Shown here one piece after another: positions 2,275 to 43,861 of a DNA stretch of 54,835 bases. The notes beneath the pieces are model-generated. The model was not told the DNA's origin. It searched no databases and saw only the letters and a list, made by a program, of their open reading frames with translations. The DNA is from an uncultured Pelagibacteraceae bacterium (GTDB lineage Bacteria > Pseudomonadota > Alphaproteobacteria > Pelagibacterales > Pelagibacteraceae): NCBI GenBank assembly GCA_902523095.1, contig CABYYE010000005.1, positions 1-54,835 of the forward strand. Direction: 5' to 3'. Within the stretch, counting starts at the first letter, position 1; each line of letters opens with the position of its first letter. Position numbers and translations under genes: made by a program.

Positions 2275-3218
2275 TAATTCAATTCTTTTGGTAATTTAAA
2301 AACTACTTTTTCTTCAGCAACCACTACTTCTTCAATAGAAACTTTTCTGTCTTTTGTTATGTTTTTTAACAATGCTTGAACTAATTTCTCTGGAGCAGAG
2401 GCGCCAGAAGATATTCCTATAGTATCTGAGTTATTTATTTCATTATAAGGAATTTCCTTTTCAGAATGCATCAAGTGCGAATTATTGCAACCAGCCTTTT
2501 TAGCTACTTCAACCAATCTAACAGAATTAGATGAGTTACGACTTCCGACTACAAAAAATATGTCACATCTTGATGCAATTTCTTTTACAGCAGATTGTCT
2601 ATTTGTTGTTGCGTAACAAATATCTTCTTTAACCGGACTTTTGATATTAGGAAATTTTTTTTTTAGGCAGTCTATAATTTCTGCTGTATCATCAACTGAT
2701 AAAGTTGTTTGCGTAATATAAGCTAGTGGTTTTTTGAAATCAGTTATAATTAAATTTTCAACATCACTTTTAGTTTCAATTAGTTTTATAGAACCCCTAG
2801 GAAGCTGGCCCATTGTACCTACTACTTCAGGATGGTTTTTATGACCAATTAATAAAATTTCATACCCTTTTTTATTTAATTGTTCAGACTCTCTATGCAC
2901 TTTAGACACAAGAGGACATGTTGCGTCAACATATGATAAGTTTTTAAATTTTGCCTCTTCAGGAACTGATTTTGGAACGCCATGTGCCGAAAATATAACT
3001 GGTCGAGTATTGTCTTTTATATCAGCTAATTCATCTACAAAAATAGCTCCCTTTTTTTTAAGTTCATCAACAACTTGTTTATTATGAACAATTTCATGCC
3101 GTACATATACTGGGGATCCATATTTGTTAATAGATTTTTCTACAATTTCAATTGCACGTTTTACTCCAGCACAAAAACCTCTTGGAGAGGCTAGATAAAT
3201 CTTAAGTTCTTTTTTCAT
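2274..3218 (-). CDS. ispH: 4-hydroxy-3-methylbut-2-enyl diphosphate reductase
   Basis: Iron-sulfur enzyme catalysing the last step of the MEP pathway, giving IPP and DMAPP. 314 residues. The three cluster cysteines are at C16 (RGFCAGVKRAI), C101 (DATCPLV) and C201 (DICYATTNRQ), with active-site histidines H41, H79 (SAHGVP) and H129 (KNHPEVVG). The ATG lies inside the end of blh (17-nt overlap), so it is translationally linked to the retinal genes upstream. This fits a supply role: isoprenoid precursors made here feed the carotenoid genes of the same transcript, as well as ubiquinone and undecaprenol. Confidence 0.96.
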   Translation of the reverse strand: MKKELKIYLASPRGFCAGVKRAIEIVEKSINKYGSPVYVRHEIVHNKQVVDELKKKGAIFVDELADIKDNTRPVIFSAHGVPKSVPEEAKFKNLSYVDATCPLVSKVHRESEQLNKKGYEILLIGHKNHPEVVGTMGQLPRGSIKLIETKSDVENLIITDFKKPLAYITQTTLSVDDTAEIIDCLKKKFPNIKSPVKEDICYATTNRQSAVKEIASRCDIFFVVGSRNSSNSVRLVEVAKKAGCNNSHLMHSEKEIPYNEINNSDTIGISSGASAPEKLVQALLKNITKDRKVSIEEVVVAEEKVVFKLPKELN

Positions 3219-4107
3219 ATTTTTCTAAAAGATATTCAAGCAATATATGCGGAAAAGTTAATGACGCCAAACCAATAAAAATAACCTTATAAATAGCCTC
3301 ATCAAGTGTATAAAAATTGTTAAGAAAATAAATTGTAATTAAGAATATAAGACTAGTAATAAAAGTTAAAGGAAGAGCTTTTTTAATAAATTTTTTTAAA
3401 CCTTGCCTAAAAGAATTGTCTAACTCAAAAATTAGACTAATTGAATGCCTAATTGAGTGCAAAAAGCAAAAATATAAAGTGAATGCCAATACTGGCGTTA
3501 AGAAGACGTTTAAAATAATTAAAGATAAAAAATCCATTATCATAAGTGCTTTCGTATCAATATTTTTATTATTTGAAAGATAGATTGAAGAAATGAAACT
3601 TAAGAACAGAAAGAATATTAAAAAATAATTATTAAAAAAGGAATACTCAAATACTTGAAAATTTAAAATTCTAAAAATCTCATTTGTTGCTGCTTTATTA
3701 AATAAAAGAGGTGCAATAATAATAGATGAGCCTTTTAAGAAAAATAAAAGTTCTGTAAATAAAAAACTTTTTTTAAAATAAAAAACAGTATCCTCTTTAC
3801 CAAAATGGTAAGAGGCAACAATTAAAAAAAGTAGTAAAACAATATTAGGAATTATTAACCAGAGAATTATTATTAATAAAGATACTAAGATATATATTGC
3901 ATAGAACAAAGAAATTGATTTATATCCAAATAAGTTTAAAAGTTTATTACCCTTGATATTATCTAAAGATCCATGAGAAATCCCAATAATAAGAATTAAA
4001 AATAAACAAAATATAATTGGTTCATACTTAAATAAAAAATATATTGGGGACAATAGAATACTAAAATTAAAAAATATGATTGAATGTTTATAGTTTATAG
4101 TTTTCAT
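3202..4107 (-). CDS. blh: Beta-carotene 15,15'-dioxygenase, Brp/Blh family
   Basis: Integral-membrane oxygenase that splits beta-carotene into two retinals, the chromophore of proteorhodopsin. 301 residues, almost entirely hydrophobic helices. The conserved iron-ligand histidine motifs are recognisable: HGSLDN (H45), SYHFGKED (H101), FLHSIRHSI (around 215-225) and FPHILLEYL (H287). It starts 2 nt after the crtY stop and its 3' end overlaps ispH by 17 nt. The placement after crtI-crtB-crtY completes the route from geranylgeranyl diphosphate to retinal. The rhodopsin itself is not in the window. Confidence 0.9.
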   Translation of the reverse strand: MKTINYKHSIIFFNFSILLSPIYFLFKYEPIIFCLFLILIIGISHGSLDNIKGNKLLNLFGYKSISLFYAIYILVSLLIIILWLIIPNIVLLLFLIVASYHFGKEDTVFYFKKSFLFTELLFFLKGSSIIIAPLLFNKAATNEIFRILNFQVFEYSFFNNYFLIFFLFLSFISSIYLSNNKNIDTKALMIMDFLSLIILNVFLTPVLAFTLYFCFLHSIRHSISLIFELDNSFRQGLKKFIKKALPLTFITSLIFLITIYFLNNFYTLDEAIYKVIFIGLASLTFPHILLEYLLEKYEKRT

Positions 4108-4109
4108 TT

Positions 4110-5174
4110 TTAAAATAATGCTTTAATAAATGTTAGTTTTGGCATTTTTCTTATTATATTAATATCTTCAATTAAATTACTTTTATTTGATAAAAACTTA
4201 ATAACTGTAGCAGGAGAGCATTCAAACATTTTATAAAAAATATTTGGCATTTTTTTTGGATTATTTTTTAGAACTTTCAAAAAAATTTTATCAAGAAATT
4301 CATATTTTTTACCTATGTTGAATTTTTCAATTTTTGTAAGATTATCTAAATTTTTTTGAATATAGTGGCTGTGTTCTTGAATATTCAAAAAAGTGTATCC
4401 AGTACTTAACCTTGTCATCCCACCAGCAGATCCAATATTAATTTCGTTTTTTTTGTATTTTATTTTTGGAGTATAAAGTGGGATCATTCCTTTCTCCGTA
4501 AATACTATCTTATAATTTTTAATACCTAATTTATTTTTAATATAATTTTCTAGTTGTAAATCATAATCCATCAAATTTTGATTTTCCAGGTTAGAAAGCC
4601 AAGTCGTTTCAATTAATGCTCTTTTTTTGTTAAAAGGTAATGTGTAAAAAAAATGTACCTCACCTTTCTGATCACAATTAAAATCCATGAGATTGAAAAT
4701 TTCATCATCAAAAATATCTTTTTCTGTCTCTATTTCAAAACCTTGAAAATGTTGAAATAAATTTTTTTTATCTATTACAGAATCATTAACACTATTAAAA
4801 ACAATTGAATCTTTATAGTCTATTTGAATTAAATCCTTATAAAAACTAATATTTGAATTAGTGGAAAGTTTTGTATTTATTTTTTTATAAAATTTGCCAC
4901 TATCAATACTTTGATAGGGGAATTCTTTTGTCATCAACTCATTGAATCCATTAGATGTATTTATTGAAAAATTGTTCCAACTTTTTATTACGCAATCTTC
5001 AAAATTATGATTGAATACTTTCCAAAACGACCAGGTTTTATCTCTTTTATAATCTTGACGAGGTTCAATAATAGCAAGTGTTTTGTTTTTAAGTTTTCCA
5101 TTGATTTCAAGCTCATAAGCCAAAGATAATCCTGCACAACCGCCTCCAATTATAACGTAATCAAACTCTTTCAT
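4110..5174 (-). CDS. crtY: Lycopene beta-cyclase (CrtY)
   Basis: Cyclises both ends of lycopene to give beta-carotene. 354 residues, close to the 380-390 of characterised CrtY enzymes. The N-terminus carries the dinucleotide-binding fold DYVIIGGGCAGLSLAYEL (4-22), followed by an acidic loop with PRQDYKRDKTWSFW, a motif characteristic of CrtY-type cyclases. SAGGMTRLSTGYTF further on matches the conserved G-MT--STGY segment. The start lies 14 nt inside the end of crtB. Probably membrane-associated. No other cyclase type fits the sequence. Confidence 0.9.
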   Translation of the reverse strand: MKEFDYVIIGGGCAGLSLAYELEINGKLKNKTLAIIEPRQDYKRDKTWSFWKVFNHNFEDCVIKSWNNFSINTSNGFNELMTKEFPYQSIDSGKFYKKINTKLSTNSNISFYKDLIQIDYKDSIVFNSVNDSVIDKKNLFQHFQGFEIETEKDIFDDEIFNLMDFNCDQKGEVHFFYTLPFNKKRALIETTWLSNLENQNLMDYDLQLENYIKNKLGIKNYKIVFTEKGMIPLYTPKIKYKKNEINIGSAGGMTRLSTGYTFLNIQEHSHYIQKNLDNLTKIEKFNIGKKYEFLDKIFLKVLKNNPKKMPNIFYKMFECSPATVIKFLSNKSNLIEDINIIRKMPKLTFIKALF

Positions 5175-6006
5175 TTAAATCAATCTCCTCAGCTAAAATA
5201 TCATGATCTTTATGATGATCGTAACCTACTTTTTTAACAAAAAATAATTTAAAGAAATCAAAAATAGATAAAAATGTTTCAATCAATTTACTAATAAAAG
5301 GAACATATATTTTTCCAGCATAATTATAATTCTCCATATTTTTTTGTTTAAGAATATAATCACCAATCTTTTTATAAACTCTCCTAGCAACAATGACAGC
5401 AAATCTTGATCGCATAGGTATTTTACTTATCGAATTAAAAGATTTGTCATAAAACACTTCTGAGTCTTTAATAGTTTTCCTGATCGACGAAAATTCTGTG
5501 TCTATGTATTTACGATTATTTTTATTATCTTCATTTACATCTCTAGCAATATTTGTAAGTTGCATTGCGATTCCTAAATCTATAGCACCTTTTAAAGCTT
5601 CTTTATCTTTGACTTGTAATATTTTAGACATCATTAATCCGACAGTTCCAGCAACTCTATAAGAATATATTAATAAATCTTTTTTAGATTTTATAATTAC
5701 TTTCCCTTCTAAATCTGTCTCAATACCATCAAATAAATCCAATACTACCTTTTTAGAAATATTATCACTATCAATTATTGTTAACATTTCTCCTATAATA
5801 GGGTTATCAAAATTTCTATTCAAAAAATCTTTTTTAAATCTAAAAAAACAATCCTTTTTTATTTGTTGTCCATTATCAGTATCGGCAATATCATCTAAAG
5901 TTCTACAAAAATTATATAAACTTATAGATTTTTTTAATATTACTTTTGGAAGAAAAAAGCTTGCCCAATAAAAAGATTTTGCGTGCTTTTGAAGTAAATT
6001 AATCAT
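5161..6006 (-). CDS. crtB: Phytoene synthase
   Basis: Condenses two geranylgeranyl diphosphates into phytoene, the first committed carotenoid step. 281 residues, a squalene/phytoene-synthase fold. Both Mg2+-binding aspartate motifs are present: RTLDDIADTD (35-44) and NIARDVNED (152-160). The ATG overlaps the end of crtI (ATGA overlap, 4 nt) and the 3' end overlaps crtY by 14 nt, so the four crt/blh genes are tightly coupled. The substrate would come from a GGPP synthase (crtE) that is not encoded in this window. Confidence 0.94.
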   Translation of the reverse strand: MINLLQKHAKSFYWASFFLPKVILKKSISLYNFCRTLDDIADTDNGQQIKKDCFFRFKKDFLNRNFDNPIIGEMLTIIDSDNISKKVVLDLFDGIETDLEGKVIIKSKKDLLIYSYRVAGTVGLMMSKILQVKDKEALKGAIDLGIAMQLTNIARDVNEDNKNNRKYIDTEFSSIRKTIKDSEVFYDKSFNSISKIPMRSRFAVIVARRVYKKIGDYILKQKNMENYNYAGKIYVPFISKLIETFLSIFDFFKLFFVKKVGYDHHKDHDILAEEIDLNERV

Positions 6007-7472
6007 TTAAATAAATTGTCTAAAACTTTTGCTGAAGAAAGTACACCAGGCATACCAGCACCAGGATGTGTACCAGCACCTACAAAGAATAAATTTTTAA
6101 ATACTTCTGATTGATTGTGAAACCTAAAATAAGCTGATTGTGAGAATTTCGGTTGTATCGAAAATCCTGAACCGTGCATGGTCGCTAAGTCATTTTCAAA
6201 ATAATCTGGTGTTAAATAAAAATCACTTACAACATTCTCTTTTATTTCAGGTAAAATAGATTTATCCATTTTATCTAAAATTAAATTTTTAAACTTTTCG
6301 CCCTCAATTGACCAATCTATATTTGAAAGATTATTTGGCACAGGTACTAAAACATAAAATGCATCTTGACCATTAGGAGCCATGTTAGGGTCAGTAGCAG
6401 ATGGTCTATGTAAGTAATAACTTATATCCTTAGACAAAATTTTTTTTTCAAAAATTTTATTTAAGTGTTTTTCATATGAATCTCCAAAATAAATTGTGTG
6501 ATGAGCTACGTCTTTATATTGTTTTTTTGAACCAAAATAATAAACAAACAAGCCCATTGAATAGTCCATCCTATTCATCTTTTGATTAAATAAAAAACTA
6601 TAATTATTTTTAGATTTAATTAAATTTTTGTAAACATTAGGAGGATCTGAATTGCAGACCACATAATCACAATTAATAATCTTTGAATCATTAATTTTAA
6701 TGCCATTAACTTTATTATCCTTTAATATTATTTCAGTTACTTCTGCTTTTTTAATAATTTTTATATTTTCCTCGTTCATTAGTTTTTCTAATGCTTTAAC
6801 AACATTACCAGTTCCTCCCATTGAGTAATGAATTCCCCACTTTTTTTCTAAAAATAAAATAAGCGTATAAATTGAAGTTGTTGTGAAAGGATTGCCCCCC
6901 ACCAAAAGTGGATGCATGCTAAAAACTCTTTTTAACTTTTCGTTAGAAATATAGTTTGAAACTAATTTGTAAACTGATTTATAGCTTTTTAGTCTCAATA
7001 GCGCAGGTATTTGTTTAAACATAAATGATAAATTATTAAATGGTTTGTCAGACAAATCAGTGAAACCTTTATTGAAAATTTTTTCAGTAAAATTTACTAA
7101 ATTATAATATCCATTTAAATCCGTATCTGAAAATTTCTTTATTTCTTTTTCCATTGATTCTTTGTCACCAGAGTAATCAAAAGTTTGACCATCTTTGAAT
7201 ACAAAACGATACCATAAATCTAGAGGTATTATCTTGACATAATCTGATATCCTTTTATTAAATAAAGAAAATAATTCTTCAAAAAGATAAGGTGCAGTTA
7301 TTACAGTTGGACCACCATCATAAATAAAATTTCCTTTTTTAAAAACCCTTGCTCTTCCACCTAAGTCTGGAAGTTTTTCAACTAAAGTTATATCATAACC
7401 TTTAGCTCTTAATCTCAAAGATGCTGCAAGACCTCCAAAACCTGAGCCTATAATAATTATTTTTTTCGCCAT
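6003..7472 (-). CDS. crtI: Phytoene desaturase
   Basis: FAD enzyme that desaturates phytoene to lycopene in four steps. 489 residues, the normal bacterial CrtI length. The N-terminal FAD site IIIIGSGFGGLAASLRLRA leads to the DLGGRARVF segment, and the C-terminal CrtI signature FFVGAGTHPGAGMPGVLSSAK is intact. It is the first of the retinal-pathway genes and begins only 17 nt after the stop of atpF, with no room for an obvious separate promoter. It may therefore be read from F0-operon transcripts, or from a promoter inside atpF. Confidence 0.95.
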   Translation of the reverse strand: MAKKIIIIGSGFGGLAASLRLRAKGYDITLVEKLPDLGGRARVFKKGNFIYDGGPTVITAPYLFEELFSLFNKRISDYVKIIPLDLWYRFVFKDGQTFDYSGDKESMEKEIKKFSDTDLNGYYNLVNFTEKIFNKGFTDLSDKPFNNLSFMFKQIPALLRLKSYKSVYKLVSNYISNEKLKRVFSMHPLLVGGNPFTTTSIYTLILFLEKKWGIHYSMGGTGNVVKALEKLMNEENIKIIKKAEVTEIILKDNKVNGIKINDSKIINCDYVVCNSDPPNVYKNLIKSKNNYSFLFNQKMNRMDYSMGLFVYYFGSKKQYKDVAHHTIYFGDSYEKHLNKIFEKKILSKDISYYLHRPSATDPNMAPNGQDAFYVLVPVPNNLSNIDWSIEGEKFKNLILDKMDKSILPEIKENVVSDFYLTPDYFENDLATMHGSGFSIQPKFSQSAYFRFHNQSEVFKNLFFVGAGTHPGAGMPGVLSSAKVLDNLFK

Positions 7473-9845: not shown

Positions 9846-12290
9846 TTACGCGACTAATTCTTCGGCTTTCTGTAAATCCACCGAAACAAGCTGACTCACA
9901 CCTTGCTCTGCCATTGTTACTCCATACAATCTATGCATTCTAGACATTGTTAAAGCGTGATGTGTAATAATAATAAATTTAGTTTTAGTTATTTTTGTTA
10001 ATTCATCTAGTAAAGCACAAAATCTTGTAACGTTAGCGTCATCTAAAGGAGCGTCAACTTCATCTAAAATACTTATAGGTGAGGGGTTGACCAAAAAAAC
10101 TGCGAATATCAATGATAAAGCAGTTAGTGCTTGTTCTCCTCCGGATAACAAAGTTATAGATTGAAGTCTTTTACCTGGCGGTGAAACAAACATTTCTAGA
10201 CCTGCTTCTAAAGGATCATCTGAGTCAACCAACTCAATTTTTGCATTACCCCCATTGAATAATTTAGTATACACTTCATTAAATTTCCTATTAACTTTGG
10301 TAAAAGCCTCAAGAAGTCTTTCCCTTCCTTTTTGATTAAGTTCATCTATGCTTGCTTTTAACTTCACTATAGCAGAATAAAGATCTGCTCTGTCATCTTC
10401 CATTTTTTTAATTTCTGACTCATATTTCTTTGTTTCCTCATCAGCCTTTAGATTTACTGACCCAAAAGACTCTCTTTGTTTTTTTATTTTTTCTACCTTA
10501 ATTGACTGTTCATCTATATTTGGTAAATTTTCTTGCGACAAATCACTTAAATCAGATTTTGCTAATAAAGAAGTATCATTTTCTATACTTAGTTCGCTTT
10601 TAACTGAATACATCAAATCCTTCTTCCTATTATCTATACCGTCTACGGTAGCTTCATTTCTTGCTTTATTTTCTTTTAAATCTGATAACTTTATTTGAAC
10701 TTCTTTTAAATTTTGATTAATTAAATTAATTTTTGACTCGGATTCATTTAATTCAATCTCTAATTCTTCATTCCTTTTTTTTGTATTTTCTAAATTTTGT
10801 AAATTTTGACCTTTCGATGTGGCTATTCTCTCTGGGTTTTTCTTATTTTCATCATGCTCTATCTTAATTTTTTGTTTTCGTTCATTTAGTTCAAAAATCA
10901 TTTTCTCAGAATTTGTTTTCAAATTTCTCCAATTTTCCAATTCCACATCAATATTTTTTATTCTCTCTTTCCTTTTAATAGAGTCGCTTTGAATAGATTT
11001 ATTTTTACCATATTTTTCCGCGTACTCTTCTTGGGATAATGTAATTTTTTGAACTAGTGATTTTAGTTCTTGAAAAATATCTTTTGATAATTGTTTTTTT
11101 TCATCAATATATTTTTCAATTCTATTAAGTATTGCATCTAGCTGATTTTTAAGATTGTTCAAGTTTAATTTAGATGTATCTAACTCCTTTTCTGAAGTTG
11201 TTTCCACTTCTAACAATTTGTTTTCAGTTTTTAATAGTTCTTCCTTCTCTTTTGAAATTCTTTTTTCATTAAGTTCAGCATCTAAAGAAATACTTTTCTC
11301 TCTTTCTAAATCAGACTCAATTGTTTTAATTGATTTTTCAAGTTTGACTTGTTGATTTTTAACTCTAGTGTCTTCATCATCAAGACTTGTAATTTCTAGA
11401 TTTAACTTCTGTAATTTTGCTGTGTTTTCCATTTTTTTGTCTCTTAATGGAGTAATTTTTTTATTTTCTTCCTCTAGAAGTAAATTGTTATGATTAAGGT
11501 CAATTTTTACCGCGCTAATTTCGTCATCTATTTCGCTTAGTTTTTCCAATATATTTTTTTTATCTTTTTCAATTTCTTGAATCTTTAGATAGTACAGTCC
11601 AGCCTCTACCTGTTTAATTTTTTGAGAAATTTCTCTATATTTTGTTGCTTCCTCTGCTTGTTTTTTTAAATTATCTAATTGTTTCTGTTGTTGTTTTCTT
11701 AACTCATCAGCTCTTTTTAAATTATTTTCTGCAGCATTTAGCCTTGTTTCAGCCTCGTGTCTTCTAGCATGTATTCCAGATATACCAGCTGCTTCTTCTA
11801 AAATGGCCCTTCTTTCAATTGGTTTGGAGGTAACAAGTTGTCCAATTCTTCCTTGACTTATTAATGAAGGAGAATGAGCACCTGTCGATAGATCAGCGAA
11901 GAAAGTTTGAACATCACGAGCTCTTACTTCTTTATTATTAATAAAATATTTAGAACCTTTGTCTTTTTCAATTTTTCTTTTTATCTCAATTTCATCTAAT
12001 TCATTATACTGTGGCGGACCATCTTTGGTTTTATTATCTAAATATAAAGTTACTTCAGAAATATTTTTTGAAGGTCTATTAGATGTGCCAGAGAAAATCA
12101 CATCCTCCATACCTGAGCCTCTCATGCTTTTAGCGGAGTTTTCTCCCATGCACCATCTTAATGACTCAACAATATTTGATTTACCGCAACCATTTGGCCC
12201 AACTACACCTGTTAAACCTTCTTCTATTAAAAAGTTGGTTTTTTCTGAAAAAGATTTAAATCCATTAATTTCTAATTTTTTAAATTGCAT
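9846..12290 (-). CDS. smc: Chromosome segregation protein SMC, short form apparently lacking the hinge
   Basis: SMC ATPase that organises and separates chromosomes. The two ATPase halves are clear: Walker A GPNGCGKSN (31-39) in the N-terminal head, and signature LSGGEQ (715-720) plus Walker B ISILDEVDAPLDD (739-751) in the C-terminal head. The protein is only 814 residues; bacterial SMCs are usually near 1150. Residues about 170-680 are continuous charged coiled coil and I find no globular hinge with its glycine-rich segments. The reading frame is uninterrupted, so this is not an evident frameshift. The start ATG directly abuts the dsbA-like stop. Partners scpA and scpB are not in the window. 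Confidence 0.92.
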   Translation of the reverse strand: MQFKKLEINGFKSFSEKTNFLIEEGLTGVVGPNGCGKSNIVESLRWCMGENSAKSMRGSGMEDVIFSGTSNRPSKNISEVTLYLDNKTKDGPPQYNELDEIEIKRKIEKDKGSKYFINNKEVRARDVQTFFADLSTGAHSPSLISQGRIGQLVTSKPIERRAILEEAAGISGIHARRHEAETRLNAAENNLKRADELRKQQQKQLDNLKKQAEEATKYREISQKIKQVEAGLYYLKIQEIEKDKKNILEKLSEIDDEISAVKIDLNHNNLLLEEENKKITPLRDKKMENTAKLQKLNLEITSLDDEDTRVKNQQVKLEKSIKTIESDLEREKSISLDAELNEKRISKEKEELLKTENKLLEVETTSEKELDTSKLNLNNLKNQLDAILNRIEKYIDEKKQLSKDIFQELKSLVQKITLSQEEYAEKYGKNKSIQSDSIKRKERIKNIDVELENWRNLKTNSEKMIFELNERKQKIKIEHDENKKNPERIATSKGQNLQNLENTKKRNEELEIELNESESKINLINQNLKEVQIKLSDLKENKARNEATVDGIDNRKKDLMYSVKSELSIENDTSLLAKSDLSDLSQENLPNIDEQSIKVEKIKKQRESFGSVNLKADEETKKYESEIKKMEDDRADLYSAIVKLKASIDELNQKGRERLLEAFTKVNRKFNEVYTKLFNGGNAKIELVDSDDPLEAGLEMFVSPPGKRLQSITLLSGGEQALTALSLIFAVFLVNPSPISILDEVDAPLDDANVTRFCALLDELTKITKTKFIIITHHALTMSRMHRLYGVTMAEQGVSQLVSVDLQKAEELVA

Positions 12291-14358: not shown

Positions 14359-15491
14359 TGAAAAAAAAATTAGCTATCATAGGTTCTGGAATAGCTGGGT
14401 TAACTTTTGCAAATTTTTTAAAAAGTTATTCAGAACACGAATTTATTATTTACGAAAAAAATGAAAGCTTACCCCTCGACGAAGGTTATGGCATCCAACT
14501 ATCTACCAATAGTATAAAAATTTTAAATAAAATAAATTTTAAAAATATAAATAAAGAAAATCTTTTTAATCCTTTTGGTGTAGATTTTTATGGAATAGAT
14601 AATAAAAAAATATGTGATTTAGATCTTTCTCAGTTTAATGACGATAATTGTAAGTATTCTACTTTAAAAAGATCGACTTTAATCGAGTTTCTTAAGGATG
14701 ATATCTACAATCAACATATAAGATTTGGAAAAAAAATTAAAGAGGTCTCAGAATTGAAGGGAAAAATTTTATTAAAATTTGATGATAATACAAATGATTT
14801 AGTAGATTTTGTAATCGGCGCAGATGGGATTTTTTCTAATACAAGATCCTTTTTTGAAAAGAAAAAACACGAGCCAAAATTTAGAAAAGCAATTGCATTT
14901 AGAAAGATTATAAAATTTAACGACGAACTAAATGTTAATAAAAAAAATATAAGTTTGTTAATGGGTAAAAATTGCCATTTAGTAGTCTACCCAATTAATA
15001 AAAAGGATGAATTTAATCTGGTTTGTATAATTAGAGACAATTTAATCAATCCAAAAAATACTAAAGATTTAATAGAGAAAAAAGTTTTAAATCAAAATCC
15101 TAATCTTAGAAAAATTTTTGATGGTGAGACGAAATCATGGCCATTATACTCAACGCATCATTTTATTCCTTCTACAAATAATAAAGTTTTTTACATCGGA
15201 GATGCATTTAATGGTTTTTTACCAACTCTTGCACAAGGAGCTGGGCAGTCTATTGAGAGCGCTTATGAATTGTTTAAACTGCTTAAAGAGGAAAAATTGG
15301 ACATACAAAAAACCTATTTCAAAAAAAGATCTAAAAGAGCCTTAGCTGTGAGAAAAAGAGCAAACTTTAATTTTTTCGTATTTCATTTTTCAAGTACATT
15401 TATGCAAAATATAAGAAATTTTTTAATGAAAATGTTAATTAAAAAAAAAGGCTTTATTAACTATTACTTAGGTACAATTTATAAAAACTAA
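14358..15491 (+). CDS. FAD-dependent monooxygenase, PHBH/salicylate hydroxylase-like
   Basis: 377-residue group A flavoprotein monooxygenase. The N-terminal FAD fold is KLAIIGSGIAGLTFANFL (4-21), the mid-protein DG motif is VIGADGIFSNTR, and the second FAD/ribose motif is FYIGDAFNGFLPTLAQGAGQ, where most relatives have GDAAH instead of GDAFN. Substrate cannot be read from sequence; aromatic compounds or ubiquinone precursors are possible. It is translationally linked to mutY by a one-base overlap and its stop interlocks with the convergent ccrM stop (CTAA, 15488-15491). Confidence 0.8.
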   Translation: MKKKLAIIGSGIAGLTFANFLKSYSEHEFIIYEKNESLPLDEGYGIQLSTNSIKILNKINFKNINKENLFNPFGVDFYGIDNKKICDLDLSQFNDDNCKYSTLKRSTLIEFLKDDIYNQHIRFGKKIKEVSELKGKILLKFDDNTNDLVDFVIGADGIFSNTRSFFEKKKHEPKFRKAIAFRKIIKFNDELNVNKKNISLLMGKNCHLVVYPINKKDEFNLVCIIRDNLINPKNTKDLIEKKVLNQNPNLRKIFDGETKSWPLYSTHHFIPSTNNKVFYIGDAFNGFLPTLAQGAGQSIESAYELFKLLKEEKLDIQKTYFKKRSKRALAVRKRANFNFFVFHFSSTFMQNIRNFLMKMLIKKKGFINYYLGTIYKN

Positions 15492-16561
15492 ATTTGTTTA
15501 TCTGAAATAAATTTTTGCCTGAGACTATCAATCACTACTGTAGATCCATCAATATTACAGTGCCAATAAGTCCAACCATTATAACTTTCTGCGCCCATTA
15601 TCTTTGCTGCTACTTTATGTATTGAACCCTCTGTCTCTTTATATCTAATACTTCCATCTGCCATTATCTTAGCATTAAATTTTTTTTTATGGTCAAATAG
15701 TGTTGTCCCAGGTTTAATTATTCCTAATTCGACAAGTGAACCAAAAGGTATTCGAGGTTTTGACTTATTATTTTCAATTGTGTCAAGATAATCATCTTTA
15801 ATTTTTAAAGTTTTACTTATCCTTTCTTTGGCAGCAAAAAAATATTTTTTATCTTTTTCAATTCCACAATAATTTCTACCTAATTTCTTGGATACTACAG
15901 CAGAAGTTCCAGTACCCAAAAAAGGATCAAAAATTGTATCACCTTTATTTGTAGTAGCTAATATAATTCTATGAAGCAATGATTCTGGCTTTTGTGTAGA
16001 ATGAACTTTTTTACCATTACTTTTTAATCTTTCTTTTCCATTACAAATAGGCAGAATCCAATCTGATCTCATTTGTAAATCATCGTTTAAACATTTAAGA
16101 GACTGATAATTAAATGTATATTTAGATTTTTTATTTTTAGATGCCCAAATTAAAGTCTCATGGGCATTCGTAAACCTGGTACCTCTAAAATTGGGCATAG
16201 GATTATTTTTCCTCCAAATAACATCATTCAGCAACCAGTAATTTAAATTTTGTAAATGATATCCCAATCTAAATATATTATGATAAGATCCAATTACCCA
16301 AATACATCCATTTTCTTTTAAAACTCTTTTACATTCAATTAGCCAAGCTTTACAAAAGTTGTCATAATCTTCGAAACTATCAAACTGATCCCATTTATCG
16401 TTAACTCCATTAACTTTACTCGCGTCAGGTCGAGTTAACATTTCTCCAATTTGCATATTGTAGGGAGGGTCGGCAAAGATTAAATCGAAAGTTTGGTCAG
16501 GAATTTTTTTTAATTCCTTCAAACAATCCCCATTAAAAATTTTGTTTAAAAACTTTGACAT
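15488..16561 (-). CDS. ccrM: Cell-cycle DNA adenine methyltransferase CcrM (GANTC)
   Basis: N6-adenine methyltransferase expected to methylate GANTC, as in Caulobacter and other Alphaproteobacteria. 357 residues, full CcrM length. Catalytic DPPY is at 31-34 and the SAM-binding FDPFLGTGT at 211-219, the beta-class order; VHSTQKP (186-191) is also typical. The C-terminal domain (about 270-357, with GIIKPGTTLFDHKKKF and the WTYWHC segment) is the CcrM-specific DNA-contacting region that separates it from shorter restriction methylases such as HinfI. No restriction enzyme lies beside it. Upstream are two GANTC sites and a palindrome, suggesting cell-cycle autoregulation. Confidence 0.93.
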   Translation of the reverse strand: MSKFLNKIFNGDCLKELKKIPDQTFDLIFADPPYNMQIGEMLTRPDASKVNGVNDKWDQFDSFEDYDNFCKAWLIECKRVLKENGCIWVIGSYHNIFRLGYHLQNLNYWLLNDVIWRKNNPMPNFRGTRFTNAHETLIWASKNKKSKYTFNYQSLKCLNDDLQMRSDWILPICNGKERLKSNGKKVHSTQKPESLLHRIILATTNKGDTIFDPFLGTGTSAVVSKKLGRNYCGIEKDKKYFFAAKERISKTLKIKDDYLDTIENNKSKPRIPFGSLVELGIIKPGTTLFDHKKKFNAKIMADGSIRYKETEGSIHKVAAKIMGAESYNGWTYWHCNIDGSTVVIDSLRQKFISDKQI

Positions 16562-16639
16562 TATCTAGATTCAACCTTAAATTGAATTTAAGGTCAAACC
16601 ATTTTAGAAAAATAAAGAAACCTCTTGTGCCAAAGATTC
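16562..16639 (-). promoter_or_regulatory. ccrM control region: GANTC sites and CtrA-like palindrome
   Basis: The 78-base gap between rnhB and ccrM holds a perfect inverted repeat at 16574-16594: ten-base arms ACCTTAAATT and AATTTAAGGT around one G. Inside it is TTAA-N7-TTAA (16577-16591), the core of the CtrA box. Two GANTC sites (GATTC) flank it at 16568-16572 and 16635-16639. The palindrome ends 12 nt before the ccrM ATG and no T tract follows on the minus strand, so an operator is more likely than a terminator. Confidence 0.6.
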
Positions 16640-17212
16640 TTATTTGGACAATATCTTGTGTATCGGCTTGAAACCTTTCCTATGATGAATTGTAATTCCG
16701 TATTTTTTTAAACCATCCAAATGAGCCCTGGTACCGTAGCCAAAGTTTTTTTCCCAAGCATAGTTAGAAAATTTTTTTGATAATTTTATCATTAATTTAT
16801 CCCTAAATACTTTTGCGATAATAGATGCTGCACTAATAACTTTAATTTTTTCATCACCTTTAATAATTGTTTTAAAATTTTTTAGTCCTGCAGGAGCAAA
16901 ATTACCATCAATTAAGATTTTCTCAGGTTGAATTGGAAGCAAGTTGATGGCTCTTTTCATTGAAAACAAAGCGGCTTGTAAAATATTGAAATTTAAAATT
17001 TCATCTACTGAGGCTAGTCCGATAGCATAATGAGAGTTAGATTTAATATGCTCTGAAATTCCCTCTCTTTTTTTAAAAGAAATCTTTTTCGAGTCTTTTA
17101 GGAGTTTGAGATCTATACCTTTTTTTAAAATTACCGCAGCTGAAACTACTGGGCCTGCTAAGCATCCTCTGCCAACTTCATCGACACCAGCAATAATTAA
17201 ATCTTTATTCAA
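16640..17212 (-). CDS. rnhB: Ribonuclease HII
   Basis: Cuts RNA at RNA-DNA junctions and removes single ribonucleotides from DNA. 190 residues, typical length. The hallmark IAGVDEVGRGCLAGP (7-21) carries catalytic D11 and E12, and AASIIAKVFRD with LIDGN upstream gives the remaining acidic residues; the C-terminal GYGTRAHLDGLKKYG and HHRKGFKP segments are diagnostic of the family. It directly follows the uracil-DNA glycosylase gene. The genome therefore has both RNase HI (rnhA at 881) and HII. Confidence 0.95.
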   Translation of the reverse strand: MNKDLIIAGVDEVGRGCLAGPVVSAAVILKKGIDLKLLKDSKKISFKKREGISEHIKSNSHYAIGLASVDEILNFNILQAALFSMKRAINLLPIQPEKILIDGNFAPAGLKNFKTIIKGDEKIKVISAASIIAKVFRDKLMIKLSKKFSNYAWEKNFGYGTRAHLDGLKKYGITIHHRKGFKPIHKILSK

Positions 17213-30508: not shown

Positions 30509-31569
30509 TAGCTGAATCCCGGAAAATTATCTTTATTGAATTTATAAGCAAAAATTACTTTAAATAAATCACCCATTAATTTTGCGTCAACAAGTCTTTT
30601 TAATCTAAAATATAAATCAGATTTATCTTTAAAACTCATTTTTTTACTTAAAATTTCAGCTCGTTGGAAAATACCCATTTTTTCCAAAAAATTTTTTTGT
30701 GTTTGAATATTTTTAACTTTCAACTTATTTCTTATAAAATACTCTTTTAAAAGCTTAAAATTAACAAGAGAAGTAATATCTGCTTTACCTAAGTTTTCTA
30801 ATAAATCATTTTTTTTATGTTTAAAAACAGATTGTAAGGTATCTTTATTTTCAGCTGAAATATACCCATAGTCTATCAATAACAACCCTCCCTTTTGTTT
30901 TGTTATCTTTTTTGTAATCCTGTCCAATTCACTAAAACCCAATTTTGGAAATTCAATAAAATTCAAGTTCTGCAATGTTTTAAATTTTTTTATTTGTTTA
31001 ATCTCTTTTTTTTTTGCTTTTTTATAAATTTCTTTTATTTCATTTTTTTTACTAAGCAAATAGTACTTTTCTAATAAAACTTTCTTTTTAAATAAAAACT
31101 GTTTAATAGGCAAAGCATCAAAAAATTCGTTACCGAAAAAAAAGATTGGTCCTTTTTTTATACTATTAAAATTATTAATCCATTTTACTTTTGGACTATT
31201 AATTTTATCTTTTTGTATCTTTTTTAATAAATTACTTTTCTCATATAAATAAATATTAGTTGATTTTTTAAACTCTGGGAATTTATTAAAAGTTTTAATT
31301 AAAACTTTTGTAAGACTTCCATCCCCAGGACCAAGTTCAACAATGTTAAAACTTTTAGGTTTTTTTAAGTTATTCCAAACCGACACAAACCAAATACCAA
31401 TAATTTCTGAAAATAAACTTGAGATACCTGGTGAAGTAATAAAATCACCTTTATTTCCGAACGGAATATTAGAAGAATAATAACCGTCTTTTTTATTAAA
31501 AAGCACATTTTCAAAAAATCTATCTACCGGAAGTGCTTTATAATCATTAAAAAAGTTTTGATTAATCAT
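30508..31569 (-). CDS. SAM-dependent methyltransferase, MidA/NDUFAF7 family
   Basis: 353-residue protein of the DUF185 family. The mitochondrial relative NDUFAF7 methylates an arginine of a complex I subunit during assembly. Family features visible: DGYYSSNIPFGNKGDFITSP near the N-terminus, EIIGIWFVSVW, the SAM-binding VELGPGDGSLT (about 88-98), and FFGNEFFDALPIKQF. Starts inside the lgt stop (4-nt overlap). The lgt-midA-pgeF order is conserved in Alphaproteobacteria. A complex I role is inferred from the family. Confidence 0.85.
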   Translation of the reverse strand: MINQNFFNDYKALPVDRFFENVLFNKKDGYYSSNIPFGNKGDFITSPGISSLFSEIIGIWFVSVWNNLKKPKSFNIVELGPGDGSLTKVLIKTFNKFPEFKKSTNIYLYEKSNLLKKIQKDKINSPKVKWINNFNSIKKGPIFFFGNEFFDALPIKQFLFKKKVLLEKYYLLSKKNEIKEIYKKAKKKEIKQIKKFKTLQNLNFIEFPKLGFSELDRITKKITKQKGGLLLIDYGYISAENKDTLQSVFKHKKNDLLENLGKADITSLVNFKLLKEYFIRNKLKVKNIQTQKNFLEKMGIFQRAEILSKKMSFKDKSDLYFRLKRLVDAKLMGDLFKVIFAYKFNKDNFPGFS

Positions 31570-32396: not shown

Positions 32397-32642
32397 ATGA
32401 GTAATTCAGAAAAAATATTAAAGACTTTGTCAAATCTGATAGAAAATGGAATTTTAACTTCTAAAGATTTTAAAAAAGAGATTTCTAACAACTTTAAATT
32501 TGAAAAAGATAAACTTATTGATAAGTTACAACTTGTTTCTAGAAAAGAGTTTGAAGTTTTAAAAAAAATAGTTCAAAAACAAGACTCAATTATAAAAAAG
32601 CTTTCTAATCAAAAAAAAACTAAAAAGGTAAAGAAATCTTAA
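32397..32642 (+). CDS. ubiK: UbiK-family accessory factor (BMFP)
   Basis: 81-residue, highly charged coiled-coil protein of the BMFP/UbiK family, an accessory factor that helps the ubiquinone-synthesis complex in proteobacteria. The family's C-terminal segment LVSRKEFEVLKKIVQKQD (residues about 47-64) is well conserved, followed by a Lys-rich tail. Its 3' end overlaps the end of convergent envZ by 23 nt. Ubiquinone relevance fits the bc1 genes in the window. Confidence 0.82.
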   Translation: MSNSEKILKTLSNLIENGILTSKDFKKEISNNFKFEKDKLIDKLQLVSRKEFEVLKKIVQKQDSIIKKLSNQKKTKKVKKS

Positions 32643-33936
32643 CCATTAACCCTTTATATTTGCTTTTCCCTAACTGAACGTTACCTCCATGAGAATTTAT
32701 AATATCTTCTACTATAGCCATACCTAAACCAACCCCAGATTTATTCAAACTTCTACTTTTATCAAGTCTAAAAAAAGGTTTGAAAACATTTTTAAATTGA
32801 TCTTCTGGAATACCTGGACCATCGTCTTCAACAGTTATCACAACTCTATTTGAACCTGTTTGCATATTTACAAAAACATTTTCCCCATAAATAAGCCCAT
32901 TTTGAATTACATTTTCAAAACATCTCTTCAATGCAGAATATCTCCCATTTAACATTGCATTTGCTAGAATCTCTAAATTTAATTTTTCGCTATTTAAATC
33001 CTTTTCAATTTCACTAAGTATTTTCGATAAATCTACTCTAGCTGTTTCTTCTTGAGCCTGGGTTTTAGCAAACTGCAAATAATCATTTAACATTTTTTCC
33101 ATTTCATCTATATCTCTAGACATTTTTTCTGAAATGCTCTTTTCCTTAATCATAGCTAGTTGCAATTTTAATCTTGTTAGAGGTGTTCTTAAATCATGAC
33201 TTATCCCAGATAACATTTCCGATCTTTGATTTAAATGTCGATTAATTCTTTTTGCCATTCTATCAAACTCATAAGCTGCTTTTCTTATTTCTGCTGCCCC
33301 AGAAGGTCTAAAATCATTAATATAATTTCCTTTACCAAATCTTTCAGCAGCCTTTGCTAACTTTACTAAAGGTCTCGTTTGATTTTTAAGAAATATCAAA
33401 GCAATTAATATTAGAGCAATCGAGGGTACTGTGGTCCATAAAACAAAAAGTCTGACAGATGAAGCCGAGATCATTTCTTTAGGAACTAAAAACTCAATCA
33501 CTTCATTATCTAATTTAATTTTTATTTCTACTGCATTTTTGAATTTAGATGTACTAAACCAATATTTATTGTTTCCAAATGCTGATTTTAACTCTCTTCT
33601 CAACGATCTATCCATTGGACTGAATTTCCTTTCTCCACTTGTGTTAGGAAATACATTTTGATTTATATCAATTTCAAAATTGAAATTATTTTTGTAGCTG
33701 TCAGTAAAAAATTCTAAATTATCTTTATTATTTAAATATACTTCTTGGATAGTTTTTAGTTGAGACACTAAAGATCTAGTTATATTCTTATTTGCTTTTA
33801 TCCAGATGCTATCATAAAAAACTATAGTAATTATAATTTGTAAAATAATTGTTGGAGCAGCCACTATTATTAACGCTCTATAAAATAATCTTTTAGGTAA
33901 AATTATTTTTAAAAATTTATTCAATCCAAAGAACAT
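32620..33936 (-). CDS. envZ: EnvZ-like sensor histidine kinase
   Basis: 438-residue membrane sensor kinase. Two membrane helices (about 20-41 and 165-185) enclose a periplasmic sensor of roughly 120 residues; a HAMP segment follows (FLKNQTRPLVKLAKAAERFG). Phospho-acceptor H247 is in SGISHDLRTPLTRLK. ATP-binding boxes: N box ENVIQNGLIYG, G1 VEDDGPGIPE, F box FKPFFRLD, G2 SGVGLGMAIV. Overlaps its partner ompR by 20 nt. The stimulus is unknown; EnvZ-like fits the domain order and alphaproteobacterial sequence. Confidence 0.92.
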   Translation of the reverse strand: MFFGLNKFLKIILPKRLFYRALIIVAAPTIILQIIITIVFYDSIWIKANKNITRSLVSQLKTIQEVYLNNKDNLEFFTDSYKNNFNFEIDINQNVFPNTSGERKFSPMDRSLRRELKSAFGNNKYWFSTSKFKNAVEIKIKLDNEVIEFLVPKEMISASSVRLFVLWTTVPSIALILIALIFLKNQTRPLVKLAKAAERFGKGNYINDFRPSGAAEIRKAAYEFDRMAKRINRHLNQRSEMLSGISHDLRTPLTRLKLQLAMIKEKSISEKMSRDIDEMEKMLNDYLQFAKTQAQEETARVDLSKILSEIEKDLNSEKLNLEILANAMLNGRYSALKRCFENVIQNGLIYGENVFVNMQTGSNRVVITVEDDGPGIPEDQFKNVFKPFFRLDKSRSLNKSGVGLGMAIVEDIINSHGGNVQLGKSKYKGLMVKISLPF

Positions 33937-34594
33937 AGCCAGATCCCCTTATTGTTTGTAGGTATTTAGGATTTTTAGGATTCATTTCAATTTTTTGTCT
34001 TAACCGAGTAATCATAACATCAATTGATCTTTCCTGACTTATACCTGAAATATTTCCAATTTCTTCTCTTGAAAAAGTTTTTCCTGGGCTGGAAAGCATT
34101 TCAATTAAAACTTTTTTTTCAGATTGATTGATTTTTTTATTATTTTCACCCAAGAGTATCACCATCTTATTTAAATCAATCTGGGCTTTACCAACATAAT
34201 ATTTAGATTTTAAGTCAATTTTCTTATTTTTTTCAATTATGTTTTTTATTCTAAGAAGCAATTCTTTTGGTTCAAAGGGTTTACCCAAGTAGTCATCAGC
34301 ACCTAATTCTAATCCCTTTATTCTGTTTTCCACTTCACCTTTTGCTGTAAGCAATATAATTGGTAATTTTAATTCTTTTTTAATTTCTTTAGTCAACTCG
34401 TAACCATTTTGACCTGGCATCATCACATCAAGTACAATTAAATCAAATTTGAAATAGGTAATTTTAGCTTTAGCATCTTCCGCATTCTCGGAAGTCGAAA
34501 CTAGATAATTATTCTCACTCAAATATTCCTTAAGTAAATCTCTAATTCTATCATCATCGTCTACAACCAGTATGTGTATTTTTTTATTTTCCAT
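33917..34594 (-). CDS. ompR: OmpR/PetR-type response regulator
   Basis: 225 residues from the ATG at 34594 (two TTG codons just upstream at 34600 and 34597 are possible but less likely). Receiver domain with acidic pocket VVDDDDRIRDLL and phospho-acceptor aspartate D56 in LIVLDVMMPG; lysine in LTAKGE. C-terminal winged-helix DNA-binding domain with SREEIGNISG and QERSIDVMITRLRQKIE. Pairs with EnvZ downstream (overlap 20 nt) and overlaps petP upstream (11 nt). Alphaproteobacterial orthologues are called PetR. Confidence 0.93.
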   Translation of the reverse strand: MENKKIHILVVDDDDRIRDLLKEYLSENNYLVSTSENAEDAKAKITYFKFDLIVLDVMMPGQNGYELTKEIKKELKLPIILLTAKGEVENRIKGLELGADDYLGKPFEPKELLLRIKNIIEKNKKIDLKSKYYVGKAQIDLNKMVILLGENNKKINQSEKKVLIEMLSSPGKTFSREEIGNISGISQERSIDVMITRLRQKIEMNPKNPKYLQTIRGSGYVLWIE

Positions 34595-35024
34595 CAACAA
34601 TTTTTTTTAAAACTTCTTTAAACTTTATAACTGAGTCTGAATTAGAGTTTTTGAGTGCATTAAATATTCTTTTTTTTTGACTGTTGTATACTGCATCAAA
34701 AAAAATTTTTCCTTCTTTATTTAAAAATAAATTTTTTTTTCTTGTATCTTTTTGATCTTTAACTTCTTTTACCATTTTTGAATTCATTAAATCCCTTAAA
34801 ACTCTATTAAGACTTTGTTTTGTCACTTTTAATTTAAATATTAATTCACCAGGACTAATTCCAGGATGCCTTTCAATTAGATTTAAAGACCTCAAATGAG
34901 CAGGTCCAAAAAACTTTTTTGATAAGACTTTTTGTGGATCTGAAAAGGTTTCTCGGTAGGCATAAAATAAAAGTTGAATAAAATCTTTAATTTGTTCGTC
35001 TTTAAGATAAAGTAAATCTTTCAT
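34584..35024 (-). CDS. petP: MarR-family regulator (PetP-like)
   Basis: 146-residue winged-helix regulator. The MarR wHTH core reads AHLRSLNLIERHPGISPGEL, LKVTKQSLNRVLRDLMNSKM, and the wing is VKEVKDQKDTRKKNLFL. In Rhodobacter capsulatus the equivalent pair petP-petR was tied to cytochrome bc1 expression, and bc1 genes occur in this window at 23682. The order petP-ompR-envZ, divergent from ilvE, fits this assignment. Ligand unknown; MarR proteins often bind their own upstream region, here the 77-base gap. Confidence 0.83.
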   Translation of the reverse strand: MKDLLYLKDEQIKDFIQLLFYAYRETFSDPQKVLSKKFFGPAHLRSLNLIERHPGISPGELIFKLKVTKQSLNRVLRDLMNSKMVKEVKDQKDTRKKNLFLNKEGKIFFDAVYNSQKKRIFNALKNSNSDSVIKFKEVLKKIVDGK

Positions 35025-39539: not shown

Positions 39540-41689
39540 TTTTTTTGTTGCTTCTTTACTTTAGTCCCAGGCATACCAAGCGTTGATCTACCTTTTGGAT
39601 AAACTTTATTTTTAAGGTTATACTGACCTATTTTTGGGTTCAAAGTTATTTCTAATTCACTAGCCTCTAATTTTCTTATTTCATCTCTTATCTTAGCTGC
39701 TTCCTCAAACTCTAGATTGGCAGCTGACTCTTTCATCTTTTTATTTAATCCTTTAAGATGTTTTTTTAGATTACCTCCAATATTAGAGTCTTTAATATTT
39801 ACATAATCTTTTTCGTAAACTGACTCTAAAATATCTCCTATTTCTTTTTTTACTGATTCAGCTGTGATATTATTTTTTTTATTGTATTCTTGCTGCTTCG
39901 ATCTTCTTCGATCGGTCTCTTTAATAGCTTTTTCTATACTTTTGGTTTTTTTATCTGCATACAGAATAACTTTTCCGTCAATATTTCTGGCAGCTCTTCC
40001 AATGGTTTGAATTAAAGATGTTTCTGACCTCAAAAATCCCTCTTTATCAGCATCTAGAATTCCTACCAACCCACACTCTGGAATATCTAGTCCTTCTCTT
40101 AAAAGATTTATTCCAACCAAAATATCAAATACTCCAAGTCTTAAATCTCTTATAATTTCAATCCTCTCTAATGTATCAATGTCAGAGTGCATGTATCTAA
40201 CCTTCAGACCATTTTCATGAAGGTATTCTGTTAAATCTTCTGCCATTTTTTTTGTTAGTGTTGTTGCCAAAACACGATAGCCTTTTTCTATAACTTTTGC
40301 AGCTTCATGCATCAAATCATCCACTTGTGTTTTTGCTGGCCTAATCTCAACAGGCGGGTCAATCAACCCTGTTGGTCTAATTATTTGATCAATAAATTTG
40401 TTGTTAGTTTGTTTTAATTCCCAGGGGCCTGGTGTTGCAGAAACAAATACTGTTTGAGTCCTCATCATATCCCATTCTTCAAACTTAAGGGGTCTATTAT
40501 CCATACAGGAAGGAAGTCTAAAACCATATTCAGCCAATGTACTCTTTCTTGTTCTATCTCCTTTGTACATCCCGTTTAATTGCGGTACTGTTACGTGACT
40601 TTCATCTACAAATATAATTGTGTTATCTGGAAAATATTCAAATAGTGTTGGTGGAGGTTCGCCAGCTTTTCTTCCAGATAAAAACCTAGAATAGTTTTCA
40701 ATACCAGCACATGTTCCTGTAGCCTCTATCATTTCTAGATCAAACTTTGTTCTTTCTCTCAATCTTTGTTCTTCTAATAATTTGTTATTTGCTCTATGTT
40801 TTTTTAATGTCTCTGCTAACTCAGATTTTATTTGTTTAATTGCCTGCTCCATTGTTGGCTTAGGAGTTATATAGTGACTGTTTGCGTAAATCTTAATTAT
40901 AGAATAACTATTAGTTTTATCCCCTGTTAAAGGATCAAATTCTTCTATTTTTTCTAATTTATTTAAATTAAAACTTATTCTCCACGCTCTATCTTCAAGG
41001 TGAGACGGAAAAATTTCTAAATTTTCTCCCCTCACTCTAAAAGTACCTCTAAAAAAATTTTGATCATTTCTTTTATATTGAAGCATTACAAATGTCCTTA
41101 TTAATTCATCTCTACTATATTCGTTATTTTTTTTAAGCGTTATGGTCATCTTGCTATAAGCTTCTACTGATCCGAGCCCATAAATACATGAAACACTTGC
41201 TACAATGATAACGTCATCTCTCTCTAGCAATGATCTTGTCGCTGAGTGTCTCATTCTATCTATCTGCTCATTAATCGAAGCTTCTTTTTCTATGTAAGTA
41301 TCTGACCTAGGAACATAAGCTTCTGGTGTATAATAGTCATAATAAGAAACAAAATATTCAACAGCATTATCTGGAAAAAAACTTTTAAATTCTCCATATA
41401 ATTGCGCAGCTAAAGTTTTATTTGGAGCTAGGACCAAAGCGGGTCTATTAGTAGCTTCTATTACTTTAGCCATAGTAAAAGTTTTTCCAGAACCTGTCAC
41501 CCCAAGCAGGACTTGTTCATTTTTTTTGTCTTTAATATTTTTAGTTAATAATTTTATAGCCTGAGGTTGATCACCAGCTGGTTGAAAGTCACTTTTAATT
41601 TTAAACTTAATACCACCTTCTAACTTCTTCTTAATAGAGTTGTTAGTAGTTTCAATATCTAGTATTTTTTCTTGATAAGTATTTTGCAT
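39521..41689 (-). CDS. uvrB: Excinuclease ABC subunit B
   Basis: Damage-verifying helicase-like ATPase of nucleotide excision repair. 722 residues. Walker A GVTGSGKT (63-70), beta-hairpin region [24 protein letters not shown]-like VDESHV, helicase motif [14 protein letters not shown], and C-terminal UVR motif [15 protein letters not shown] for UvrC binding. First gene of the uvrB-SDR-folB-uvrC-pgsA block; divergent from aspC across 41 bases. A basic tail ([14 protein letters not shown]) ends the protein. Confidence 0.97.
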
Positions 41690-41696
41690 TTTGTGT

Positions 41697-43861
<2,165 letters not shown>

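Follow-up and report, generated by a model that had tools for sequence, protein, structure and literature searches.

The 78 bases that precede ccrM in an uncultured bacterium of the Pelagibacteraceae (SAR11) can be read, with somewhat more confidence than doubt, as a sigma-70-type core promoter with built-in CcrM sites, through which the methyltransferase gene would be autoregulated by methylation without CtrA. At least one GANTC lies in the core of 139 of 147 distinct SAR11 ccrM promoters. In the ocean, SAR11 bacteria rank with the most abundant cells, and they carry few regulators.

The ccrM promoter of the window genome

The window, i.e., the whole stretch of 54,835 nucleotides that was analysed, belongs to a 75% complete assembly (886 kb, 36 contigs), and the nearest named relatives of its ccrM are Pelagibacteraceae (SAR11). 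The encoded methyltransferase matches NF050803 (E 1.3e-169, 563.7 bits), below the 830-bit cut-off of that Caulobacter-type equivalog, and the CcrM structure PDB 6pbd (E 2.3e-135). Its ATG occupies 16561-16559 on the minus strand, and an intergenic gap of 78 bases (16562-16639) separates it from rnhB. The features of the locus are listed below, where type A denotes the promoter form of the window's clade.

15488-16561, minus strand: ccrM, adenine DNA methyltransferase, 357 aa (NF050803; methylase and RAMA domains; PDB 6pbd)
16568-16572, minus strand: GANTC on the right (GAATC), which shares bases with the putative -10; 73 of 93 distinct type-A promoters retain it
16569-16574, minus strand: putative -10 element TTGAAT at a 17-bp spacer, assigned by its spacing and by where TCTAAT stands in other SAR11 genera
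16569-16587, minus strand: dyad ATTCAA-N7-TTGAAT, present in 39 of 41 same-genus genomes
16574-16594, no strand: perfect 21-bp palindrome, private to the window genome (exact copy at 1 of 170 loci)
16584-16588, minus strand: eroded left GANTC, AATTC here and GATTC in most relatives; GANTC in 82 of 93 type-A promoters
16592-16597, minus strand: -35 element TTGACC; TTGAC conserved at 170 of 170 loci
16602-16615, minus strand: T-rich run followed by AAAA, upstream of the -35 element; column conservation in 93 type-A promoters
16617-16621, minus strand: eroded upstream GANTC, GTTTC here and GACTC in many relatives (sequence reading)
16635-16639, minus strand: distal GANTC (GAATC), directly past the rnhB stop (sequence reading)
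16640-17209, minus strand: rnhB (RNase HII), upstream of ccrM on the same strand (PF01351, E 2.3e-38)

Transcription is predicted to start at or adjoining the ATG, which would make the putative transcript near-leaderless. Because the putative -10 of TTGACC-N17-TTGAAT has no A at position 2, where other SAR11 genera display TCTAAT, a consensus scan left the promoter unreported; it gave instead a promoter-like match on the opposite strand (16555-16583, plus strand, 10/12), and the promoter sites found in the region numbered 2 vs 2.0 in shuffles. That opposite-strand match, TTGACA-N17-TAAATT, leads from the ccrM start codons towards rnhB and holds a GATTC in its spacer. No terminator was found in the region, and the search for structured RNA there retrieved a sole match, mir-80, far below threshold. 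The T-rich run with its AAAA (16602-16615) resembles an UP element.

Both GANTC sites that the original prediction counted in the 78 bases are present, at 16568-16572 and 16635-16639. Only the first belongs to the core promoter, where it lies on the putative -10; the second is a distal site after rnhB. The window species retains this one core GANTC, the core partner typical of its relatives having been lost.

Elsewhere in the window, positions 3202-7472 contain genes that resemble, by eye from their translations, those of carotenoid/retinal synthesis (desaturase, synthase, cyclase, and cleavage enzyme).

Palindrome, CtrA box, and the CtrA hypothesis

The palindrome proved exact as originally described: 21 bp, with 10-bp arms around one central base, it encloses TTAA-N7-TTAA (16577-16591) and is separated from the ccrM ATG by 12 bases (16562-16573). 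Taken singly, the palindrome, the CtrA-box core, and the GANTC pair are each statistically unremarkable. GANTC is rarer than expected in the window (103 vs 148), in which 12 adjacent GANTC pairs nevertheless span 78 bp or less, and TTAA-N7-TTAA was observed 16 times vs 18.9 expected. Odd palindromes with arms of at least 10 bases occur in 14 of 60 shuffled windows, and the window itself holds two more long palindromes: an odd one of 21 bp (42294-42314, 10-bp arms) and an even one of 22 bp (31288-31309, 11-bp arms). The 19-bp core of the palindrome occurs once without mismatch in the 886-kb, 75% complete assembly. Since all three features lie at chance level, any significance can come only from comparison with relatives. 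Despite the overall depletion, four GANTC cluster at 39726-39859 in a uvrB-like open reading frame (ORF) and three at 53965-54036 in an rpoD-like one, both named by eye.

Such a comparison speaks against conservation of the palindrome, which was not found at the other 169 of the 170 SAR11 ccrM loci compared, own locus included. We consider it very probable that the palindrome as such is functionless, a chance by-product of promoter parts composed of the ACC that ends the -35 element, the conserved ATTCAATTT core, and AAGG, a frequent variant; the change of GATTC to AATTC beside the -35 tail would have created it by chance. Arms at the same centre typically measure 3 bases (101 of 110 loci), with 7 as the next longest and 10 in the window, and 14 of the 60 shuffled windows hold a comparable palindrome. 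Two observations weigh in the opposite direction, namely, that the palindrome is unique in its assembly and that it is located on the promoter.

The original prediction had CtrA bind this palindrome and activate ccrM as in Caulobacter. The box core is indeed in place at 16577-16591, and the ccrM promoter of S. meliloti is bound and activated by CtrA (PMC4433202), as far as the consulted part of that source goes. However, none of 58 Pelagibacteraceae genomes (the own genome, 75% complete, and 57 others that are at least 92% complete) has a ctrA (NF045991) above cut-off, the best match reaching 148 bits vs the required 350. The palindrome is private to one genome, and TTAA-N7-TTAA occurs in the window at chance frequency and within 100 nt upstream of ccrM at 7 of 189 SAR11 loci, scattered. 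Because the palindrome is unconserved and ctrA is missing above cut-off, the CtrA reading is rejected as very improbable. In a second search, the same model placed ctrA above cut-off in 40 of 60 other alphaproteobacteria, and no ctrA was found in the own, 75% complete assembly at E 1e-60; Caulobacter was above the cut-off in both searches. The excerpted text of Brilli 2010 (PMC2877005) describes Pelagibacter as having no ctrA ortholog, and that of Adhikari 2021 (PMC7987155) agrees with the absence of CtrA.

Several response regulators were encountered in these searches. The best match of the own genome to the ctrA model, far below cut-off, is the regulator at 33917-34600, an OmpR-family protein that stands in a row with a MarR-family gene and a histidine kinase (32620-35024), which we take to be PetPR-like. 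The top Trans_reg_C matches near gcrA in relatives were considered as ctrA candidates; the one tested is phoB in a pst-phoU cluster, and the others appear by eye to be regulators that we would label PetR-like and ChvI-like and a degenerate orphan regulator. The own genome also encodes an orphan response regulator (L156:930-1556, 208 aa) that is degenerate and adjoins a gene named YkuD-like by eye, and similar pairs are found in relatives, the second SAR11 family included.

GANTC sites in ccrM promoters of SAR11 and other Alphaproteobacteria

The SAR11 set comprised 170 ccrM loci (80 from genomes of named species and 90, the own among them, from a second genome set) with 147 distinct promoters, for which gene starts were taken from the protein match and not from annotation; counts of promoters refer to distinct sequences, not to independent events. 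All 170 loci have a TTGAC upstream of ccrM, at a distance of 35-68 nt from the start of the match. Within the 30 nt that follow the -35 hexamer, the 147 distinct promoters hold 230 GANTC vs 8.3 expected from the window's GANTC density, and the offsets of these sites behind the hexamer are limited to 1-4, 14, and 19. Two core GANTC are displayed by 91 promoters, one by 48, and none by 8. At the left site the N is variable (82 GATTC, 17 GAATC, 11 GACTC, and 6 GAGTC), so the GANTC methylation site itself is apparently under selection.

Several forms of this promoter can be distinguished. Type A (93 distinct promoters) reads TTGACC-N3-GATTCAATTT-N3-GTTGAATC, with the left GANTC present in 82, the right in 73, and both lost in 2; the window promoter is one of the 11 in which the left site has been lost. 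Furthermore, the 60 nt that precede the -35 element of type-A promoters contain 1.3 GANTC on average vs 0.11 expected. A common form in another SAR11 group is TTGACN-N3-GAATC-N6-GAGTCTAATT, a third group displays GAGTCTAATTCAACGTAAAGTTGAATC, and the second SAR11 family employs TTGACC-TC-GATTC-N6-GAATC-ATATT and variants of it, some of which have just the right site. One ccrM homologue (L110, genome G027) contains one in-frame TAA.

The paired layout occurs above chance in SAR11 only at ccrM. The pattern TTGACN{2,4}GANTCN{6,12}GANTC matched 71 times in 144 family genomes, with 52 matches at ccrM, as assigned by hand against ccrM positions, and 19 elsewhere vs 25 for the backwards control. These other matches were considered as second promoters of the same kind, a reading that was dropped on finding 13 of 17 examined (of the 19) inside ORFs longer than 120 aa. 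Outside long ORFs, TTGAC-N4-GACTC-N12-GAATC was seen in two genomes of one genus (L224 and L225); this element could be a further methylated promoter or an RNA gene.

In type A, the GANTC sites lie at the edges of a dyad whose conservation calls for separate consideration. Of 41 same-genus genomes, 39 contain ATTCAA-N7-TTGAAT, in roughly one copy each. Among the 30 matches retrieved as loci, 25 lie within 40 nt upstream of ccrM; six more genomes have the dyad at ccrM by coordinates and eight by sequence likeness only, and ten further places yielded it a single time each. A looser pattern, TTCAAYNNNNRGTTGA, stands at ccrM in 12 of 12 genomes of another genus. The type-A column table was selected by a pattern fixing TTGAC, ATWCAA, and TTGAA, so that only its other columns count as evidence, and in it the letters that complete the GANTC sites (G 88%, C 78%) rank below the surrounding ATTCAATTT and GTTGAAT in conservation; in the T-rich run, the T columns are 81-97% and three A columns 98-100% conserved. 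The stronger conservation of the dyad letters suggests that a second factor may act.

One such factor would be an unknown dimeric regulator that binds TTCAA-N7-TTGAA, with the GANTC at its edges being secondary or merely modulating. The placement of most dyad matches at ccrM in the window's genus, its counterpart in all 12 genomes of the other genus, and the ranking of dyad letters above GANTC-completing letters in type A favour this reading, as does a similar dyad (by eye) that is shifted relative to the promoter in other genera, as an operator might be. However, no candidate protein emerged, none being seen among the neighbours of ccrM, and the feature conserved outside SAR11 is the spacing of GANTC. 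In type A the dyad's right half falls on the putative -10, and in the other genus on the -35 element, so part of the dyad conservation may be promoter conservation. In the other genus, moreover, 27 of 39 TTCAAYNNNNRGTTGA matches lie away from ccrM vs 15 for the backwards control, with recurrence in two intergenic places. On balance, we regard a dimeric regulator of this kind as unlikely. Examination of 30 TTCAAYNNNNRGTTGA matches placed 11 at ccrM, 12 within ORFs, and the remaining 7 outside long ORFs. The recurrent places, seen in two genomes each (L297 and L300; L312 and L317), precede a transporter solute-binding-like gene and an ammonium-transporter-like gene, as named by eye.

The comparison was extended beyond SAR11 to the class, in which ccrM was matched in 92 of 124 genomes at E 1e-60. 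Upstream DNA was read in 60 of the 90 ccrM-positive genomes outside Pelagibacterales, a non-random sample drawn mostly from the top of the match list, with three families sampled twice. TTGAC-N14/15-GANTC precedes ccrM in 30 of these 60 genomes, at exactly 14 in 27 of the 30 occurrences, compared with 0.145 on average and never more than 1 in 200 shuffles; the other 30 genomes do not have the fixed spacing. The paired form (gaps of 2-4 and 4-12) was detected in 20 of the 60 genomes and in 0 of 100 shuffled sets, and 23 of the 30 genomes with the fixed-spacing element also possess a left GANTC. The right GANTC is followed by A in 30 of 30 and, four bases later, by T in 29 of 30. This pattern fits a weak -10 (CANNNT) at a 17-base spacer, which the right GANTC would then abut, and the SAR11 promoter forms look like relatives of this layout.

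That half of the sampled genomes outside SAR11 have the layout at ccrM suggests ancestral control. We tentatively propose, with belief a little short of an even chance, a dedicated self-reading ccrM promoter (TTGAC, GANTC, GANTC-ANNNT) that is ancestral across Alphaproteobacteria, that predates CtrA control or does not depend on it, and that survives in SAR11 as the core of the cell-cycle circuit. One SAR11 lineage would have fused it with a new operator, GATTCAA-N7-TTGAATC, and be losing its methylation sites singly, as in the window species. With CtrA, the paired element is found in 19 of 47 genomes and without it in 1 of 13 (p 0.04), a difference that is uncorrected for relatedness and for that reason carries no weight here.

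Proposed methylation-dependent autoregulation and known systems

In the mechanism that we favour, CcrM would methylate the GANTC sites in and beside the -35/-10 interval of its own gene, GcrA or another methylation-sensitive step would read their state and set promoter strength, and replication, by leaving the sites hemimethylated, would reset the promoter. Expression of ccrM would thereby be coupled to the CcrM protein and to the replication fork with CtrA not needed, and full methylation could be either activating or silencing. The window species possesses a worn copy of the conserved promoter, with one core GANTC left inside the conserved ATTCAA-N7-TTGAAT dyad. The poor putative -10 of type A, the 30 of 60 genomes outside SAR11 without the fixed spacing, the 8 of 147 SAR11 promoters without a core GANTC, and the 2 of 93 type-A promoters with neither site count against autoregulation; the last two promoters, together with the weaker conservation of the GANTC-completing letters in type A, indicate that something else is also selected.

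GcrA is a candidate reader of the marks at the ccrM promoter. In the partial texts consulted, GANTC sites of Pelagibacter are reported as methylated in a CcrM-type manner (PMC9516812; all but 5 of 3482 GANTC fully methylated in NP1, and 42 unmethylated in all samples in a MAG), and GcrA is described as a sigma-70 cofactor that prefers methylated promoters (PMC7403470; PMC3667746); it binds methylated GANTC promoters, of which 4 of 5 tested are crippled by mutation of GANTC (PMC3667746). Adhikari 2021 (PMC7987155) predicts that ccrM belongs to the core targets of GcrA in many orders. A family search identified gcrA in 33 of 41 genomes, including the own (G000:C19, ORF 9872-10381), whose product aligns with both domains of the solved Caulobacter GcrA. 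The original prediction held that the cell-cycle circuit survives in this genome; with GANTC conserved in ccrM core promoters and gcrA present, the GcrA/CcrM half may indeed survive, but not the CtrA half.

At class level, GcrA was above cut-off in 50 of 60 genomes by a detection that may miss divergent copies. All 10 genomes without it carry a TTGAC-GANTC element and 20 of the 50 with it have none, an association that runs in the wrong direction for the element (Fisher p 0.02; p 0.72 for the pair, 60 genomes). Occurrence of such elements in GcrA-negative genomes leaves room for direct polymerase effects or for another reader. Methylation could, for instance, hamper RNA polymerase directly, giving negative autoregulation without GcrA, in which hemimethylation at the fork fires ccrM. 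In 30 of 60 genomes outside SAR11 the inferred -10 directly adjoins the right GANTC, as such an effect would have it, and the 10 GcrA-negative genomes point the same way; furthermore, in the consulted portion of a study of the Agrobacterium gcrA promoter in engineered E. coli, a detectable effect of GANTC methylation is read as repression (PMC11514494). In Caulobacter, however, transcription starts with GANTC between -35 and -10 constitute one class, activated at 40-60 min (PMC4287350, seen in part), and GcrA is present in most genomes (33 of 41 and 50 of 60). We therefore consider a direct effect on polymerase distinctly unlikely, with methylation-dependent autoregulation, read by GcrA or otherwise, as the preferred account.

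GANTC within 50 bp accompanies just 31% of GcrA-enriched cell-cycle start sites in Caulobacter (PMC4287350), and the extended motif YGAKTCK is a Caulobacter proposal, with no such preference in Brevundimonas (PMC7987155), both according to partial texts. The window site departs from YGAKTCK, reading AGATTCA / TGAATCT at 16567-16573.

How SAR11 times DNA methylation without CtrA is a question for which the fixed layout offers a testable mechanism of epigenetic feedback, and species that have naturally lost single sites, such as the window species, provide ready-made mutants. The distribution of the layout suggests ancestral promoter control of ccrM, accompanied by CtrA control in some model species.

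In Caulobacter, GANTC lies near the ccrM promoter. The ccrM promoters of Caulobacter and S. meliloti, which control the same gene, are CtrA-activated in the portions of the literature at hand (PMC4433202; PMC3667746), unlike those of SAR11, where ctrA is not found above cut-off. Caulobacter ctrA P1, mipZ, and podJ likewise display GANTC near or between -35 and -10 (PMC3667746, PMC4287350; partial texts), the difference being that the SAR11 target is ccrM itself and that no CtrA was found. Caulobacter GcrA/CcrM promoters, again from partial texts, also carry one or two sites each, with GcrA and CcrM present, whereas the window site departs from YGAKTCK and its GcrA dependence is putative. A partial search of the literature retrieved no earlier description of this ccrM promoter layout, for which we do not claim unpublished status. 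The closest precedent is Adhikari 2021 (PMC7987155), in which ccrM is likewise a likely GcrA target and extended GANTC motifs are considered in -200..+100; the portion of that study at hand contains no promoter architecture, and the present comparison adds to it the fixed -35/GANTC/-10 spacing, the SAR11 versions of the promoter, and their erosion.
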